Positions 7,756 to 14,856 of a stretch of DNA of 64,000 nucleotides are shown here, piece after piece. Every line of letters starts with the position of its first letter. The first letter of the stretch is position 1. The position numbers and the translations under genes are program-made. Source of the stretch: Arthrobacter zhangbolii (GTDB lineage Bacteria > Actinomycetota > Actinomycetes > Actinomycetales > Micrococcaceae); NCBI RefSeq assembly GCF_022869865.1, contig NZ_CP094984.1, positions 930,001-994,000 on the forward strand, written 5' to 3'. The notes below the pieces were generated by a model. That model was given only the letters and a program-made list of their open reading frames with translations. It had not been told where the DNA came from and did not search any database.

Positions 7756-9381
7756 TCAGCGCTCCCAGGGCGCTTTGACCGGGAAGTACTTCTCCAGGAA
7801 ATCAGTGACCCGTTCCGCACGCTCACCGGCGGGAACCTCCGGGAAACTGCCGTCATTGAGGCAGAACATGTCCATGTTCCGCTTCGCGAGCAGCCGCTCC
7901 AGGACTTCCAGCCCGGCGTAGGACGTGGTGTCCACGTACTTCACCTTCGCCGTTTCCTGCGTGACGGCACGTCCGGTCAGCAGGGCGTAGTAGTGGTACA
8001 GGGAGTTGGTCACCGAGATGTTGTCCTTGGCCCGGAAGGTGCTGGCGGCGGTGGCTGCGAACTCCTCGGGGAATTCCTCCTCCATCTCCAGCAGGACACT
8101 GCGGCGCAGGGGAGCGGCGGTGTGTTCCAGGTGCCTGGTGGTGATGCGGCCGAACCGTTCCCACAGCAGCCGCCGGTTCACCCGGGCCGCGTTCTCGAAC
8201 CCGCTGCGCTCCGCGTCGTTGGCGCCCAGGCCGATCCGGGTGCTGGCCTCGATGAATTTGGTGATCCCGCCGGGGGAGAAGAACAGGTCCGGGGCCACCG
8301 GGCGGCCGAAGAACATATCGTCATTGGAGTACAGGAAGTGCTCCGCCAGCCCCGGAATGTGCTGCAGCTGCGCCTCGACCGCCTGGGAATTGTGGGTGGG
8401 GAGCACTGACGGATCCCTGAAGTGCTCCGTAGCCGGCACAAAGGTGACCGACGGGTGCTCTGCCAGCCAGGCCGGCCGAGGGGAATCAGAGGCAATAAAG
8501 ATGCGCCGTATCCACGGCGCGAACATGTGTACCGAGCGCAGGGCGTACTTGAGCTCGTTGATCTGGCGGAAGCGGGCCTCATGGTCGTCGCCTTCACCCA
8601 CCACGGCGTCCTTCATCCGGGCGGCACGGGCTGCCTGGAACTCGGCTGAGCTGCCGTCCACCCAGGAGAACACCAGATCAATGTCGAACCGGATGTCCGT
8701 GGCATGGTCGGCGAACATGTTTTCAATGGTCGGCCAGACGAGTCCGTGCTTTTCCACCGTTCCGCGCACCACTTCAGCGGCTGGAAGGGTGCGGCGGGTG
8801 AGGGAATTCTCCACCGGCAGGGTGATCTCGGCTCCTTCCAGGTCCCACAGCTCGAGCTGGACGCCTGCGGCGGCTGACAGAACCAGGTTTGTGCCGCTGA
8901 AGGCCCGCGGGCGGTAAACCCTGATGATCCGGGTTTTTTCCGTGGGGGCCAGGCTGCCGTCGGCAATGAGCAGGGTGCGGCTCTTTTTGGTATCCACGCT
9001 GCGGGCATAGAACGGCTCGTCGCGGCAGGCTTCCACCATTGCCTTGCGCAGGGCGGCCCGCATGCGCAGGTCGACGGCGATCACCGGCCGCTGGTCATTG
9101 CCGCGTACCAGCAGATAGGGGATGCCGGCGTCTTCGAGGACCTTCCGCACAAAAAGCAGATCCTCCACCATGGCCTCATGCGCAGTGCGGCCGGTGTCCA
9201 TCAAGGCCAGACGGCCCTTGACGAGGGCGATGTCGGGGCGGTCCCTGACCCGCTGAACTACGGCAAGGGACGCGGTCTGCAGGTTCTCCGGCTCGAAGTC
9301 CGGCTCCGGGGCTCCGAAGTAGACATCGTGTTCGGCGGCTGTATCTGTAATGGGAACCTCCAACAACTGGTGGGCGCCCAC
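7756..9381 (-). CDS. Stealth family sugar-phosphate transferase
   Basis: 541-residue protein of the Stealth family, which transfers hexose-1-phosphate units to build phosphodiester-linked capsular or wall glycans. Conserved region 1 is IDLVFSWVDGSSAEF (about residue 237). Conserved region 2 is FRQINELKYALRSVHMFAPW, followed by IRRIFIASDSPRPAWL. HNSQAVEAQLQHIPGL and LYSNDDMFFGRPV come next, and the CR3/CR4-like part includes STFRAKDNISVTNSLYHYYA. The first 230 residues are an extra N-terminal domain found in actinobacterial members. The start is the GTG at 9381. No glycosyltransferase, flippase or polymerase genes flank it, so the polymer it makes cannot be inferred. Confidence 0.87.
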   Translation of the reverse strand: MGAHQLLEVPITDTAAEHDVYFGAPEPDFEPENLQTASLAVVQRVRDRPDIALVKGRLALMDTGRTAHEAMVEDLLFVRKVLEDAGIPYLLVRGNDQRPVIAVDLRMRAALRKAMVEACRDEPFYARSVDTKKSRTLLIADGSLAPTEKTRIIRVYRPRAFSGTNLVLSAAAGVQLELWDLEGAEITLPVENSLTRRTLPAAEVVRGTVEKHGLVWPTIENMFADHATDIRFDIDLVFSWVDGSSAEFQAARAARMKDAVVGEGDDHEARFRQINELKYALRSVHMFAPWIRRIFIASDSPRPAWLAEHPSVTFVPATEHFRDPSVLPTHNSQAVEAQLQHIPGLAEHFLYSNDDMFFGRPVAPDLFFSPGGITKFIEASTRIGLGANDAERSGFENAARVNRRLLWERFGRITTRHLEHTAAPLRRSVLLEMEEEFPEEFAATAASTFRAKDNISVTNSLYHYYALLTGRAVTQETAKVKYVDTTSYAGLEVLERLLAKRNMDMFCLNDGSFPEVPAGERAERVTDFLEKYFPVKAPWER

Positions 9382-10751: not shown

Positions 10752-10958
10752 GGCAGGCTCCACACTAGAAACTGGGTGGACAGCTGCTGGACCACGATGA
10801 CATGAGCATAGCGGTGAATCTGTGCCGCTCAAATTCACGGTAACCCTCCGGTTCCGGATTCCCGCCGACTGTCCTGTGGATAACGGGCTGGGGGCGCGTG
10901 GGGCTGGCTAGGATGGCCGGACTGACAGTCTTGCGGGTTGCCCGACCGGGGGTTACAG

Positions 10959-11606
10959 ATGACCAGAACCATTGCGCGGCGTGTTGCATCCTTGTTTGGT
11001 GCGGGGGTGCTTTTGGGTGGGCTGGTTGCCTGTTCCCAGGCTGCGGGGGATCCCGGCGGTGGATCACCGTCGCCTGCCCCGCCTTCCGTCTCTGCTTCGG
11101 CCACGCCGACGCCTACACCCACCCCGTCGGCGACCTACAAGCCGGCTTCGGCTGATGGTCCGGCGGAGAATGTGCCTGTGCCGGTGATGCCGGAGGAGGC
11201 GAAGCTGGAGTCCAAGGAAGGGCTGGAGGCATTCGCGCGGTACTGGTACGAGGCTGCGAATTACGGTTTCGAAACCGGCGATGTGGAGCCCATCCGCGCC
11301 ATCAGCGGCCCGGACTGCGCTGTTTGCAAGAACTTCTACCAAATGGTCGAGTCTGGTTACCAAAATGAAGATTGGATTGTCGGTGGGCAGCTAACAGTCC
11401 AAGGGATACATTCAGATTATGTTCTAACTCCAGAAGGACGGTATCAGGTGCTGATTCAGAATATTCAGGCACCAATTGGCTATTACGGACCGGGAGTTCA
11501 CTACGGTACTCGCGATGGTTACCAAGATTCCGCGGTACAGATGATCGAAGCTAGATACAGTCCGGACGGTTGGTACGCAGAGAGCGTAGTAACCATAAAG
11601 GGATGA
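10959..11606 (+). CDS. DUF6318-type lipoprotein, copy 1
   Basis: 215-residue predicted lipoprotein. The signal peptide MTRTIARRVASLFGAGVLLG is followed by lipobox LVAC near residue 26, a Ser/Pro/Thr linker (ATPTPTPTPSA), then the conserved domain with YKPASADGPAENVPVPVMPE and EGLEAFARYWYEAANYGFET. A CxxC pair (PDCAVC) comes next and is shared by all three paralogues here. I recognise the family as probably DUF6318, actinobacterial exported proteins of unknown role. The first half is nearly identical to copy 2, while everything after PDC is diverged and lower in GC. It ends two bases before the PKD gene. The ATG lies just after a G-run (CCGGGGGTTACAG), and TAGGAT about 50 bases upstream is a possible -10. 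Confidence 0.8.
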   Translation: MTRTIARRVASLFGAGVLLGGLVACSQAAGDPGGGSPSPAPPSVSASATPTPTPTPSATYKPASADGPAENVPVPVMPEEAKLESKEGLEAFARYWYEAANYGFETGDVEPIRAISGPDCAVCKNFYQMVESGYQNEDWIVGGQLTVQGIHSDYVLTPEGRYQVLIQNIQAPIGYYGPGVHYGTRDGYQDSAVQMIEARYSPDGWYAESVVTIKG

Positions 11607-11608
11607 AA

Positions 11609-12502
11609 ATGAAGTTTCGTCCACGCAAGTTTTGTCTGGTTATAGCCATCGCGCTTTCGACTCTCGTTGCGGGAAGTGGTGCCGCTCTCGCGGCCATCAA
11701 TGACACTGGATTCAAGGACGATTTGGTCACCTCAGGAGCATTCCAGCGGGACCCTGGCACCGGTGTCTGGACAACTATGCCGGTTGGTATTCCCAGTGAT
11801 CCCATGGGCTACCGATTCGTACCGGTTTGCTTCGACGATATGGCTGGCCACGTCGAATGCTTGGCTGCGAATCAAGCTGCATGTACCGCCGGTGATGATG
11901 GGCGCCTGGTGTACTGGTTTTCGGGACTGAAAACCGTTGATCCGAGCACTTGGTCCAGAGTCAGTGATACGCCGTCGTGCATTTACTCCGAGGAACCGGT
12001 TGATATTGGTGAGCAGATCCGGGCGCAAATCCTTGCCGCGTTTCAGGAACGGCCCATAGTTCCCGGCGGGCTGGTGTTGCAGCCGAGCCCGCACACGTTG
12101 GTCGGGATGGAAACGAACGTGTATATCGAAGCAACTGAGCAGGTTTTCGAGATGGTCCTGCTGGGGCAGAGCATCCGGATTGTGGCCACACCGACGGAAT
12201 ACGAGATCAACTACGGTGACGGCACGGTGTACGGGCCCACCCCGGTACCGGGAGGCCCGTTGGGCCAGGACCGTTGGGGTGAGGTGACGCAGACCAGCCA
12301 CGCGTATGCGGCCAGCGGGGATTATCAGGTGGGCGCAACGGTGTATTTCTCCGGCAAGTATTCGGTGAACGGGGGAACCGTGATTCCCATCGATGGGCGG
12401 GCAACGGTGTCTTCGCCCGCCCAGACCCTGCGGGTGTGGCGGTCGGAAACCCGCAGTGTGGCGGACAACTGCCTGGTGAACCCGAACGGCGTCGGATGCT
12501 AG
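11609..12502 (+). CDS. Secreted PKD-like domain protein, copy 1
   Basis: 297 residues with an export signal (MKFRPRKFCLVIAIALSTLV, then GSGAALA) and no lipobox. The C-terminal third resembles a PKD/Ig-like fold: YEINYGDGTVYGPTPVPGG, then TSHAYAASGDYQVGATVYFS, the usual YxWDFGDG...HxYxxxGxYxV layout. Cysteines in VPVCFDDMAGHVEC suggest disulfides outside the cell. It probably acts at the surface together with the preceding lipoprotein; no function is known. ATG 11609 matches the start of copy 2 and has AAGGGA upstream; ATG 11603 overlaps the previous stop but leaves no room for a ribosome site. The last 224 codons are almost identical to copy 2, while the signal peptide and next 45 or so residues differ. 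Confidence 0.75.
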   Translation: MKFRPRKFCLVIAIALSTLVAGSGAALAAINDTGFKDDLVTSGAFQRDPGTGVWTTMPVGIPSDPMGYRFVPVCFDDMAGHVECLAANQAACTAGDDGRLVYWFSGLKTVDPSTWSRVSDTPSCIYSEEPVDIGEQIRAQILAAFQERPIVPGGLVLQPSPHTLVGMETNVYIEATEQVFEMVLLGQSIRIVATPTEYEINYGDGTVYGPTPVPGGPLGQDRWGEVTQTSHAYAASGDYQVGATVYFSGKYSVNGGTVIPIDGRATVSSPAQTLRVWRSETRSVADNCLVNPNGVGC

Positions 12503-12641
12503 TCGCACTCTAGTCGGCCTGACACAGCCCACGGTTCAGGCTTCCGGTGTACTGTCCTGTGGATAACGGGCTGGGGGCGCGTGTGGCTGGCTAGGATGGC
12601 CGGACTGACAGTCTTGCGGGTTGCCCGACCGGGGGTTACAG

Positions 12642-13298
12642 ATGACCAGAACCATTGCGCGGCGTGTTGCATCCTTGTTTGGTGCGGGGGTGCTTTTGTG
12701 TGGGCTGGTCGCCTGTTCCCAGGCTGCGGGGGATCCCGGCGGTGGGTCACCGGTGCCTGCCCCGTCTTCCGTCTCTGCTTCTGCCACGCCGACGCCTACG
12801 CTCACCCCGTCGGCGAAGTACAAGCCGGCTTCGGCTGATGGTCCGGCGGAGAATGTGCCTGTGCCGGTGATGCCGGAGGAGGCGAAGCTGGAGTCCAAGG
12901 AGGGACTGGAGGCGTTCGCGCGGTACTGGTACGAGCTAGTGAACTACGGTTTCGAAACCGGCGATGTGGAGCCCATCCGCGCCATCAGCGGCCCGGACTG
13001 CAAAGTATGCGGCACATTCTACAAAATGGTGGGCAAAGGATTTGAGAACGAAGATTGGATCGTAGGCGGAAAGATTGACGTTCAAGGGGTTAGCTCGGAT
13101 TACATTCTCACTACAGAAGGGCGCTATCAAGTACTGATTCAAGAACGACAAGAGGAGATTACCTTTCATGGTCCCGGAGAAATATACGGATCATACGAAG
13201 GTACAGAAGATTCCGGTGTTCAGATGATTGAGGCGCGCCATACAGGACATGAATGGTTTGCAGAAAATGTTGTAACTATTACCAGTCCCACAAAATGA
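12642..13298 (+). CDS. DUF6318-type lipoprotein, copy 2
   Basis: 218 residues. The N-terminal half, including signal peptide, lipobox (LVACSQ), Thr/Pro linker and the PAENVPVPVMPEEAK block, is nearly the same as copy 1. From the CxxC pair (PDCKVC) on, the sequence diverges: GTFYKMVGKGFENEDWIVGG here against KNFYQMVESGYQNEDWIVGG in copy 1. Motifs such as EGRYQVLIQ and VQMIEAR are kept, so the fold is the same. The diverged part is visibly AT-richer than its surroundings. The stop overlaps the next ATG by four bases, so the pair is translationally coupled. Confidence 0.8.
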   Translation: MTRTIARRVASLFGAGVLLCGLVACSQAAGDPGGGSPVPAPSSVSASATPTPTLTPSAKYKPASADGPAENVPVPVMPEEAKLESKEGLEAFARYWYELVNYGFETGDVEPIRAISGPDCKVCGTFYKMVGKGFENEDWIVGGKIDVQGVSSDYILTTEGRYQVLIQERQEEITFHGPGEIYGSYEGTEDSGVQMIEARHTGHEWFAENVVTITSPTK

Positions 13299-14188
13299 AG
13301 TTTATAAAGGGTGCGCTTGCTGTCGTTGCACTGGTTCTTGCTACGGTGCCATACAGTACACCGGCGGTTCACGCCGCTGTCGTTGGCGGTGGATGGCATG
13401 AAGACGATTCGGTGTCAGGTGGAGCATATTCCCAGGATCCAGATTCCGGGGTGTGGACCACAGTGCCGGTGGGGATCCCGGATGATCCAAGAGGCTACCG
13501 GTTCGTACCGGTTTGTTTCGACGATATGGCTGGCCACGTCGAATGCTTGGCTGCGAATCAAGCTGCATGTACCGCCGGTGATGATGGGCGCCTGGTGTAC
13601 TGGTTTTCGGGACTGAAAACCGTTGATCCGAGCACTTGGTCCAGAGTCAGTGATACGCCGTCGTGCATTTACTCCGAGGAACCGGTTGATATTGGTGAGC
13701 AGATCCGGGCGCAAATCCTTGCCGCGTTTCAGGAACGGCCCATAGTTCCCGGCGGGCTGGTGTTGCAGCCGAGCCCGCACACGTTGGTCGGGATGGAAAC
13801 GAACGTGTATATCGAAGCAACTGAGCAGGTTTTCGAGATGGTCCTGCTGGGGCAGAGCATCCGGATTGTGGCCACACCGACGGAATACGAGATCAACTAC
13901 GGTGACGGCACGGTGTACGGGCCCACCCCGGTACCGGGAGGCCCGTTGGGCCAGGACCGTTGGGGTGAGGTGACGCAGACCAGCCACGCGTATGCGGCCA
14001 GCGGGGATTATCAGGTGGGCGCAACGGTGTATTTCTCCGGCACGTATTCGGTGAACGGGGGAACCGTGATTCCCATCGATGGGCGGGCAACGGTGTCTTC
14101 GCCCGCCCAGACCCTGCGGGTGTGGCGGTCGGAAACCCGCAGTGTGGCGGACAACTGCCTGGTGAACCCGAACGGCGTCGGATGCTAA
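13295..14188 (+). CDS. Secreted PKD-like domain protein, copy 2
   Basis: 297 residues, the same length as copy 1. The signal peptide MKFIKGALAVVALVLATVPY and the following segment (GGGWHEDDSVSGGAYSQDPD) differ from copy 1. From about residue 70 (FDDMAGHVEC) the two proteins are identical apart from Thr in place of Lys in GTYSVNGG. The PKD-like domain is in the C-terminal third. The start is fixed by the ATGA overlap with the lipoprotein gene. The end overlaps the start of the third DUF6318 gene by seven bases (ATGCTAA). Confidence 0.75.
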   Translation: MKFIKGALAVVALVLATVPYSTPAVHAAVVGGGWHEDDSVSGGAYSQDPDSGVWTTVPVGIPDDPRGYRFVPVCFDDMAGHVECLAANQAACTAGDDGRLVYWFSGLKTVDPSTWSRVSDTPSCIYSEEPVDIGEQIRAQILAAFQERPIVPGGLVLQPSPHTLVGMETNVYIEATEQVFEMVLLGQSIRIVATPTEYEINYGDGTVYGPTPVPGGPLGQDRWGEVTQTSHAYAASGDYQVGATVYFSGTYSVNGGTVIPIDGRATVSSPAQTLRVWRSETRSVADNCLVNPNGVGC

Positions 14189-14856
14189 AGGTCAAAGGAC
14201 GCCGGGGACGCATCACAATAATGATGGCCTCGATAGGGGCGGCTGTCGGGTTTGCAGGGTGTGCCATGAGCGACGGGGATGCCTTCGAGGGGGAGTCCCC
14301 ACTAACGACGGAGTCATCCGTTACTCCCACCCCCACTCCCACCCCCAGATATAAGCCTGGGTCCGCCAAGGGTCCGGCTGAAAATGTTCCGCTCCCAGTG
14401 GTGCCTGTCGAAGCCAAAACCGCATCCAAGGTCGGTCTTGAGGCCTTCGCTGAGTATTGGTACGAGACGGCGAACTACGGGTACGAGACCGGCGATACCT
14501 CTTTGACTCAGGCCGTGAGTGGTCCCGAATGCGAAACCTGTGCGAACTATTTCGAGGTAGTCGAAGGCGGGTACATTGGCGACGATTGGATGGCGAACTC
14601 GGCAATAGAGGTTTTGCAAGTTCACTCTGACTACGTGCTCACACCCGACGGGCGGTACCAGGCGGTTGTTTACTTTAGACAGGAGGCGATGGAGTATTAC
14701 GGCCCCGAAGGCCTGCAACTGGAAGGTGAGGCCGATTTGGGTGTTGTGCAACTCTTCGAGGCGGTATGGGAAGGCGATCATTGGGTGGCGGCGAACATCG
14801 CGACTATGAACGTCCTGGATAAATGTCAGTTCCACCCCGAAGATCCCGACTGCTAA
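14182..14856 (+). CDS. DUF6318-type lipoprotein, third divergent paralogue
   Basis: 224 residues. It starts MLKVKGRRGRITIMMASIGA with lipobox GFAGC near residue 27, then a Thr/Pro linker (TPTPTPTPRYK) and the family block GPAENVPLPVVPVEAKTASK. The CxxC pair is in PECETC. It matches copies 1 and 2 in layout and motifs, but the DNA is diverged throughout, so it is an older paralogue rather than part of the recent duplication. It overlaps the PKD gene by seven bases. Its stop shares four bases with the convergent gene on the other strand. Two methionines at 14221 and 14224 are possible alternative starts, but they would remove the basic n-region. Confidence 0.78.
   Translation: MLKVKGRRGRITIMMASIGAAVGFAGCAMSDGDAFEGESPLTTESSVTPTPTPTPRYKPGSAKGPAENVPLPVVPVEAKTASKVGLEAFAEYWYETANYGYETGDTSLTQAVSGPECETCANYFEVVEGGYIGDDWMANSAIEVLQVHSDYVLTPDGRYQAVVYFRQEAMEYYGPEGLQLEGEADLGVVQLFEAVWEGDHWVAANIATMNVLDKCQFHPEDPDC

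Follow-up and report, generated by a model that had tools for sequence, protein, structure and literature searches.

In the Bacillus comQXP pherotypes, a variable island in neighbouring genes encodes matched specificities and defines allelic groups. The hypervariable region of staphylococcal agr is described likewise as an island within neighbouring genes that encodes matched specificities, with allelic groups (PMC10482373). The type VII secretion system (T7SS) immunity arrays of Staphylococcus aureus (esaG) and Streptococcus (tipC) are, according to PMC9484751, tandem paralogues that combine conserved blocks with a variable part and recombine via the blocks; TipC faces outside, is predicted to have a lipoprotein signal peptide in S. 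mitis, and has a concave beta sheet as its variable toxin-binding face (PMC9484751, PMC6193138), and PMC6193138 describes it with an N-terminal transmembrane segment. In the tandem lipoproteins of the S. aureus lpl locus, recombination is reported to extend from the 3' part of a gene into the 5' part of the following one (PMC9484751), and in Vibrio cholerae the effector-immunity modules of the type VI secretion system (T6SS), accompanied by orphan immunity arrays, are described as two-gene modules swapped by homologous recombination (PMC5361080). Here we analyse a locus of Arthrobacter zhangbolii (NZ_CP094984.1) made of two tandem units, each with a gene for a DUF6318 lipoprotein followed by a gene for a secreted PKD-domain protein, in which a segment spanning the junction of the two genes is very probably exchanged as a cassette. 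All coordinates are positions of the window, the whole stretch of 64,000 bases analysed (bases 930001-994000 of a genome assembled as one contig of 3,464,001 bases).

The locus resembles the esaG/tipC arrays in its anatomy (tandem paralogues, conserved blocks, a variable part and recombination through the blocks, as set out in PMC9484751). However, membership in the T7SS immunity systems is not supported, the genome having no match to the LXG toxin family (PF04740; none in the own genome, a match in 1 of 14 control genomes, B. subtilis). In addition, the partner is here encoded downstream and has a Sec-type signal peptide and a PKD domain, the island spans two genes, and exchange is also found at single-copy loci between species. 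With lpl it shares exchange across a gene junction in a lipoprotein array, but the lpl genes are described as paralogues (PMC9484751), whereas the Arthrobacter pair joins two unrelated families in a conserved pairing. As in agr (PMC10482373) and comQXP, there is a variable island in neighbouring genes with allelic groups, and here the linkage of the segments is seen; unlike in those systems, the proteins are large, not a short peptide and a kinase, and matched specificity is at most suggested. No agr-type gene was recognised by Pfam among the five locus proteins. The V. cholerae modules are similar in their two-gene exchange and in the extra downstream copies of one partner only (PMC5361080), but here only parts of the genes are exchanged and no toxin domain was found with Pfam, NCBIfam or PADLOC.

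The five genes lie on the + strand (Table 1) in the order DUF6318-A, PKD-A, DUF6318-B, PKD-B and DUF6318-C, between an acetyltransferase-like gene and a gene of the MSMEG_6728 family, and the two units of about 1.6 kb are spaced by 1683-1686 bases, which agrees with the tandem arrangement given in an initial annotation of the sequence. The array does end at 14856, as that annotation had it, though with a third DUF6318 gene that no PKD gene follows. Compared with each other, units A and B fall into three segments whose borders lie inside genes, also as first described. The 5' blocks had been called almost identical and are not, with 20 differences in 451 bases (95.6% identity), partly clustered (nine in 11063-11135, five in 11253-11261); the 3' blocks are indeed nearly so, with a single difference (12357/14043) in 671 bases, and the two blocks are therefore unlike in apparent age. 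The centre between them is sharply bounded and identical in 292 of 515 columns (56.7%, three gap columns), but reaches further to the right (11830 and 13516) than originally delimited. Change-point gains amount to 57.6 log-likelihood units at the left border and 131.7 at the right. Both centres are poor in GC (0.506 and 0.495, versus 0.648 for the window), and segments of 512 bases with a GC content of 0.52 or less occur in the 64 kb only over them.

Synonymous divergence, whose comparison inside and outside the island the initial annotation had proposed, follows the same borders. Between the A and B copies of DUF6318, columns 1-112 have a synonymous divergence (dS) of 0.115 and a non-synonymous divergence (dN) of 0.041, and in columns 113-215 the synonymous sites are saturated (proportion of synonymous differences 0.78) with a dN of 0.29; between the PKD genes, dS is 1.33 and dN 0.40 in columns 1-76, and columns 77-296 hold one non-synonymous change and no synonymous change in 164 sites. 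Three levels of divergence are not explicable by one duplication and even decay, and the earlier statement that ordinary decay is insufficient was correct. An assembly duplication is ruled out by the single 3.46 Mb contig, the non-identical units and the occurrence of the same mosaic in other assemblies. The end of the unit A 3' block (12495-12510) keeps the start bases of a DUF6318-C-type gene (ATGCTA) and then diverges, with a short dead frame; this remnant is likely a duplication scar, as if unit A had been copied from a unit that preceded a C-type gene.

The island recurs in other genomes, including those with one copy of each gene. DUF6318 is present in all 29 genomes of the genus set (G-codes denote these genomes and L-codes loci) with 1-10 copies each, 67 in total, and a PKD relative is also present in all 29. 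G009 and G010 have one DUF6318 and one PKD gene each and 2.6-kb flanks that are 98.7% identical upstream and 94.6% downstream (92 gap columns downstream), yet their centres are only 35-64% identical per 75-column window, followed by three windows at 69-75% and a remaining PKD part at 87-100%. The dS is saturated in the 3' part of DUF6318 (DUF-C) and 2.8 in the 5' part of PKD (PKD-N), versus 0.08-0.20 outside. As these loci are single-copy, no paralogue is available as a source of conversion, yet the centres differ by about half. The initial annotation had left the choice between conversion of the flanks and replacement of the centre; replacement of the centre is primary, and homogenisation of the flanks, also seen in arrays, is secondary. 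Islands in conserved flanks are also found in G027/G028 (2.6 kb upstream and downstream 95.3% and 95.6% identical) and G020/G022 (92.7% and 90.9%), and G007b/G025b shows the reverse pattern (DUF6318 85.0% identical before column 118 and 99.7% after it, PKD 97-100%). In G020/G021, the 2.6 kb upstream are 99.4% identical and the 2.6 kb downstream include 348 gap columns, mostly just after the PKD gene.

Mosaics are also present within genomes (codon alignments, without open reading frame (ORF) matches under 100 bits). The G007a copies 3572/5513 are 80-100% identical per 15-codon window as far as column 105 and 31-53% beyond, and the G015 copies 3711/6226 are 89-95% identical up to column 120 and 36-56% beyond; three G026 DUF6318 copies repeat the pattern in part, and two G026 PKD genes are 38-76% identical up to column 120 and 96-100% beyond. 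Many other within-genome pairs are diverged throughout or have merely a mild step. Sharp drops at the same borders in other strains, as the initial annotation had anticipated, were found in shared border zones, of which there are several and not one: the left borders of 14 DUF6318 pairs fall in profile columns 97-99 (6), 107-109 (3) and 118-124 (5), and the right borders of eight PKD pairs in columns 59-69 (3), 119-122 (4) and 144 (1), in pairs picked for their mosaic look and including G007b/G025b, where identity goes up at the border. The later right border lies about 25 residues ahead of the modelled PKD domain. Strain YD2 encodes at least three DUF6318 proteins with a window-like N-terminal part: P0121 corresponds to cassette B (C-part 99%, N-part 89%), and compared with A, P0128 (N-part 96%, C-part 39%) and P0129 (87%, 41%) carry other C-parts. 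Another protein, P0122, combines an unaltered cassette A with an N-part that differs slightly (97%). The protein database behind these comparisons is clustered at 90%, which may conceal an A-type in YD2. Behind one DUF6318-PKD pair, L095 (G025b) has six and L074 (G007b) four DUF6318 genes that lack a PKD gene, and the N-parts of these array members also show mosaic identity.

The two inner parts, DUF-C and PKD-N, have a linked history. The genus set comprises 36 paired units, of which two with a broken PKD gene (G007a_5513, G023b_4516) were omitted from trees and correlations (34 units, 561 pairs); the set from outside the genus comprises 67 of 80 PKD-selected loci (the first 13 lying in genus genomes), with 65 usable units, and 62 after removal of L133, L141 and L146, which proved to be genus genomes. 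In the genus, DUF-C correlates with PKD-N (r=0.69) more strongly than with its own N-terminal part, DUF-N (r=0.40), and DUF-N correlates with the distal part of PKD, PKD-C (r=0.69); the order of the correlations is reversed in bootstrap fractions of 0.0015 and 0.002. In the 62 outside units the values are 0.60 (DUF-C/PKD-N), 0.27 (DUF-C/DUF-N), 0.65 (DUF-N/PKD-C) and 0.45 (PKD-N/PKD-C). Among pairs whose outer parts are both at 0.80 or above, the two inner parts fall below 0.60 together in 12 of 21 cases in the genus and 9 of 11 outside it, and just one of them does so in a single genus pair and no outside pair. When DUF-C is at 0.70 or above, PKD-N is below 0.50 in none of 11 genus pairs and in one of 20 outside pairs.

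The trees of the outer and inner segments conflict, and the inner data reject six of the eight groups tested, including G009+G010 (approximately unbiased test, p 4.2e-54), G020+G021+G022 (4.3e-4), these five combined (3.9e-8) and G012+G013+G005 (3.8e-4). Cassette A groups with G016/G017/G026_4615 in the inner tree and cassette B with G009/G020/G021, and this tree unites {G010, G022, G018} and {G009, G020, G021}, contrary to the flank tree: the alleles cross species. Between same-type cassettes (G018/G022, G010/G022, G006/G011, G009/G020) the dN/dS ratio (omega) of DUF-C is 0.07-0.16, which indicates purifying selection, with looser values in PKD-N (0.05-0.41); no positive selection was seen in DUF-C of these four pairs, and different-type pairs are synonymously saturated in DUF-C. 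The low omega fits an exchange of old, constrained alleles. Thus, of the initial label of a diversifying surface locus, allele swapping is upheld and fast point-mutational diversification of DUF-C is not; a surface location of the products is suggested by the lipobox and the signal peptide.

The two genes are tightly, and unequally, associated. In 66 of the 67 PKD-selected loci the gene immediately before PKD is DUF6318, and the remaining locus begins at a contig end. Of the 37 PKD ORFs in the genus, 36 follow a DUF6318 gene (two of these 36 ORFs are broken) and one is a 146-aa fragment; a possible ATGA/GTGA stop/start overlap exists at 22 of the 36 genus pairs. Conversely, 31 of the 67 genus DUF6318 copies have no PKD gene. 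Among 36 DUF6318-selected loci (16 of the same family and 20 of other families in the order), a PKD relative is present in 29, with both genes among the ORF calls in 28 (the DUF6318 gene of L224 was missed by the ORF caller), and seven show none; beyond the pair, one gene cluster recurs in 10 of these loci and none in more. DUF6318 was found in 173 of 297 genomes sampled across the order. By analogy, this one-way dependence of PKD on DUF6318 would resemble an effector/immunity or a ligand/anchor relation. PKD genes are broken or partial in L073 (G007a), L091 (G023b) and L086 (G019), and the complete DUF6318 frame beside the broken PKD of G007a hints at PKD loss with DUF6318 kept. A further DUF6318-PKD pair, in L144, lies in a contig labelled as an Acidobacteria metagenome-assembled genome, possibly a mis-binned Micrococcaceae contig.

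All three window DUF6318 proteins are well above the gathering cut-off of PF19843 (131, 122.7 and 107.5 bits for A, B and C, cut-off 23.8; the queries of A and B began one codon late, at 10962 and 12645). DUF6318-B is modelled as an NTF2-like alpha+beta cone, a fold common to VirB8/TraM-type components, and the variable part corresponds in this model to helix 3 and the beta sheet. The initial term PKD-like suits the fold better than the score: the two window proteins remain below the Pfam PKD cut-off (13-14 bits versus 23.5-27, E 0.05-0.1), but 70 of 85 aligned proteins match PF00801 at E<=0.01 and PKD-B is modelled as a PKD beta-sandwich. Foldseek gave nothing at E<=0.001 for the whole PKD model, a sequence search against solved structures gave no convincing match, and PHROGs matches were solely at E>0.05; TipC is absent among the matches listed for the DUF6318 structure, which carries no weight either way. 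A phage or plasmid origin was rejected, with no relative in viral contigs (pattern and tblastn searches) or in 50,697 phage records and only three plasmid records with relatives, all Arthrobacter. A full-text literature search on DUF6318 found no paper, and broader searches returned none on the locus among the matches listed.

A short element, TGTGGATAA, accompanies the DUF6318 genes, in one orientation near the 5' end of 51 of the 67 genus genes, versus none in either orientation in 259,834 bases of genus flanking control. Outside the 29 genomes it is present at 58 of 65 loci, versus six sites in 649,503 control bases, one of which precedes an inverted DUF6318 gene (L176). In 51 of the 58 outside loci it stands 27 bases ahead of TAnnnT, a -10-like hexamer, and on account of this fixed spacing TGTGGATAA is probably part of a promoter. 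It is identical to a DnaA box. The own genome holds 21 occurrences, versus 9 of a reversed control; in six other own-genome regions with the element, two of them near the chromosome start, no similar gene family and no common pattern that would point to a regulon was recognised.

We propose that the locus exchanges cassettes that encode a cognate DUF6318-PKD pair for recognition or antagonism. This joint claim seems to us reasonably probable, its exchange part very much so, while for the cognate function the chances are about even. The unit is a pair of overlapping, presumably co-transcribed genes, one for an NTF2-like lipoprotein and one for a secreted protein that joins an N-terminal region to a PKD domain; the 3' part of DUF6318 and the 5' part of PKD would be exchanged together as one cassette of roughly 0.5-0.7 kb. 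The conserved regions on either side, in the 5' part of DUF6318 and in the part of its partner gene that encodes the PKD domain, would serve as homology arms. A double crossover in these arms, most likely by homologous recombination, would replace the resident cassette with incoming DNA, and in arrays paralogues would have their arms homogenised. Many old allelic cassettes would thereby move among strains and species. Such exchange would account for what is observed: the mosaic, the border zones that pairs have in common, the replacement at single-copy loci, the alleles crossing species and the linked history of the variable segments. The variable sheet of the lipoprotein may bind its own PKD partner, a ligand or an effector, so that each cassette would encode a matched specificity, retained as long as non-matching neighbours are recognised or inhibited; partnerless DUF6318 copies could serve as additional receptors or immunity proteins. 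When allelic types are long-lived and change hands as a unit, this is usually a sign of recognition or conflict between strains. DUF6318 is named in Pfam as a domain of unknown function, and the locus may be a new self/non-self system in Actinobacteria. We suggest only tentatively that it represents an undescribed recognition or antagonism system of Micrococcales, with a cognate PKD protein and NTF2-like lipoprotein, specificity in one cassette, old balanced alleles kept in several species, orphan arrays as acquired additional immunity proteins or receptors and a conserved promoter with a DnaA-box-like element.

Several observations weigh against this proposal. The locus is present in every genus genome, unlike patchy toxin systems, and no toxin, receptor or defence domain was found in its five proteins with Pfam, NCBIfam and PADLOC, although an undescribed toxin domain in the variable part is possible. 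The variable part of the window PKD proteins consists largely of the signal peptide and the N-tail, some 70 residues that are prone to drift. PKD-N correlates with its own PKD-C in the genus (r=0.70) as strongly as with DUF-C, and the mechanics of recombination would by themselves make the variable segments swap together, as crossovers depend on identity, which is scarce between cassette types; linkage is thus no proof of matching. Only two of the 31 PKD-less DUF6318 copies resemble a paired cassette elsewhere at 0.80 or above, so there is little support for reading them as orphan immunity genes. In some close pairs the cassette is shared along with the flanks, as in G006/G011, which are alike throughout. 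In the tree tests, whose groups were selected after the identities were known, window A+B is rejected weakly (p 0.026), G012+G013 is rejected (7.1e-4) but is no clade of the outer tree either (p 0.43), and G027+G028, a clade in the inner tree, and the G026 pair (p 0.246) are not rejected.

The lipoprotein and the secreted protein could instead be exposed antigens (a phage receptor, or a predator or host target) whose alleles are swapped for escape and travel together by adjacency. Old alleles across species would suit this explanation, and recombination in conserved arms transfers anything that lies between them; it does not by itself account for PKD being confined behind DUF6318 while DUF6318 often stands alone, and we judge it rather unlikely. 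A structural or housekeeping role, for example in the assembly of the cell wall or of a secretion apparatus, would agree with the wide distribution in genus and order and with the VirB8/TraM-type fold; frequent recombination would then bring about the exchange as a mere by-product. We hold this to be improbable. It meets a difficulty in the absence of a gene cluster beyond the pair in more than 10 of the 36 DUF6318-selected loci, and a by-product would hardly retain saturated allele types across species.

Two further explanations were considered. An old duplication in which gene conversion homogenised the ends, the centre retaining its old divergence, would explain the similar 3' and 5' blocks of the window, and G026, with similarly homogenised ends and an inner pair not rejected as a clade, conforms to it. 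For single arrays such homogenisation may hold, but as the sole explanation it is contradicted by the island between the single-copy loci of G009 and G010; the grouping of cassettes A and B with different species also speaks against it, and it is left highly improbable. That a weakly constrained linker and signal peptide simply evolved fast by point mutation is suggested by the variability of the PKD N-tail and signal peptide in aligned relatives; the synonymous contrast across the G009/G010 borders refutes it, and the low omega of same-type DUF-C is also against it, which reduces its probability to almost nothing.

Table 1 Features of the DUF6318-PKD locus (window positions).
Feature	Position	Strand	Remarks
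TGTGGATAA, promoter-like, DnaA-box-like element, unit A	10875..10883	+	Near 51/67 genus DUF6318 genes
Unit A conserved 5' block: upstream region, lipobox, linker, DUF6318 helices 1-2	10868..11318	+	431/451 identical to 12551-13001
DUF6318-A lipoprotein gene, 215 aa, lipobox LVAC	10959..11606	+	PF19843 E 6.1e-38, 131 bits
Cassette A (putative): DUF6318-A 3' part and PKD-A 5' part, GC 0.506	11319..11830	+	292/515 columns identical to 13002-13516
PKD-A secreted protein gene, start overlapping DUF6318-A stop (ATGA)	11603..12502	+	
Unit A conserved 3' block, rest of PKD-A	11831..12501	+	670/671 identical to 13517-14187
TGTGGATAA, promoter-like element, unit B	12558..12566	+	
Unit B conserved 5' block	12551..13001	+	431/451 identical to unit A block
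DUF6318-B lipoprotein gene	12642..13298	+	PF19843 E 2.2e-35; NTF2-like model, pLDDT 87.1
Cassette B (putative): DUF6318-B 3' part and PKD-B 5' part, GC 0.495	13002..13516	+	292/515 columns identical to cassette A
PKD-B secreted protein gene, 297 aa, start overlapping DUF6318-B stop (ATGA)	13295..14188	+	Modelled PKD fold, residues ~145-280
Unit B conserved 3' block	13517..14187	+	670/671 identical to unit A block
DUF6318-C lipoprotein gene, no PKD partner, start overlapping PKD-B stop (ATGCTAA)	14182..14856	+	PF19843 E 1.1e-30

Close upstream of the locus, on the - strand (7756-9381), lies a gene for a Stealth-type protein with regions CR1-CR4, possibly a surface polysaccharide transferase.

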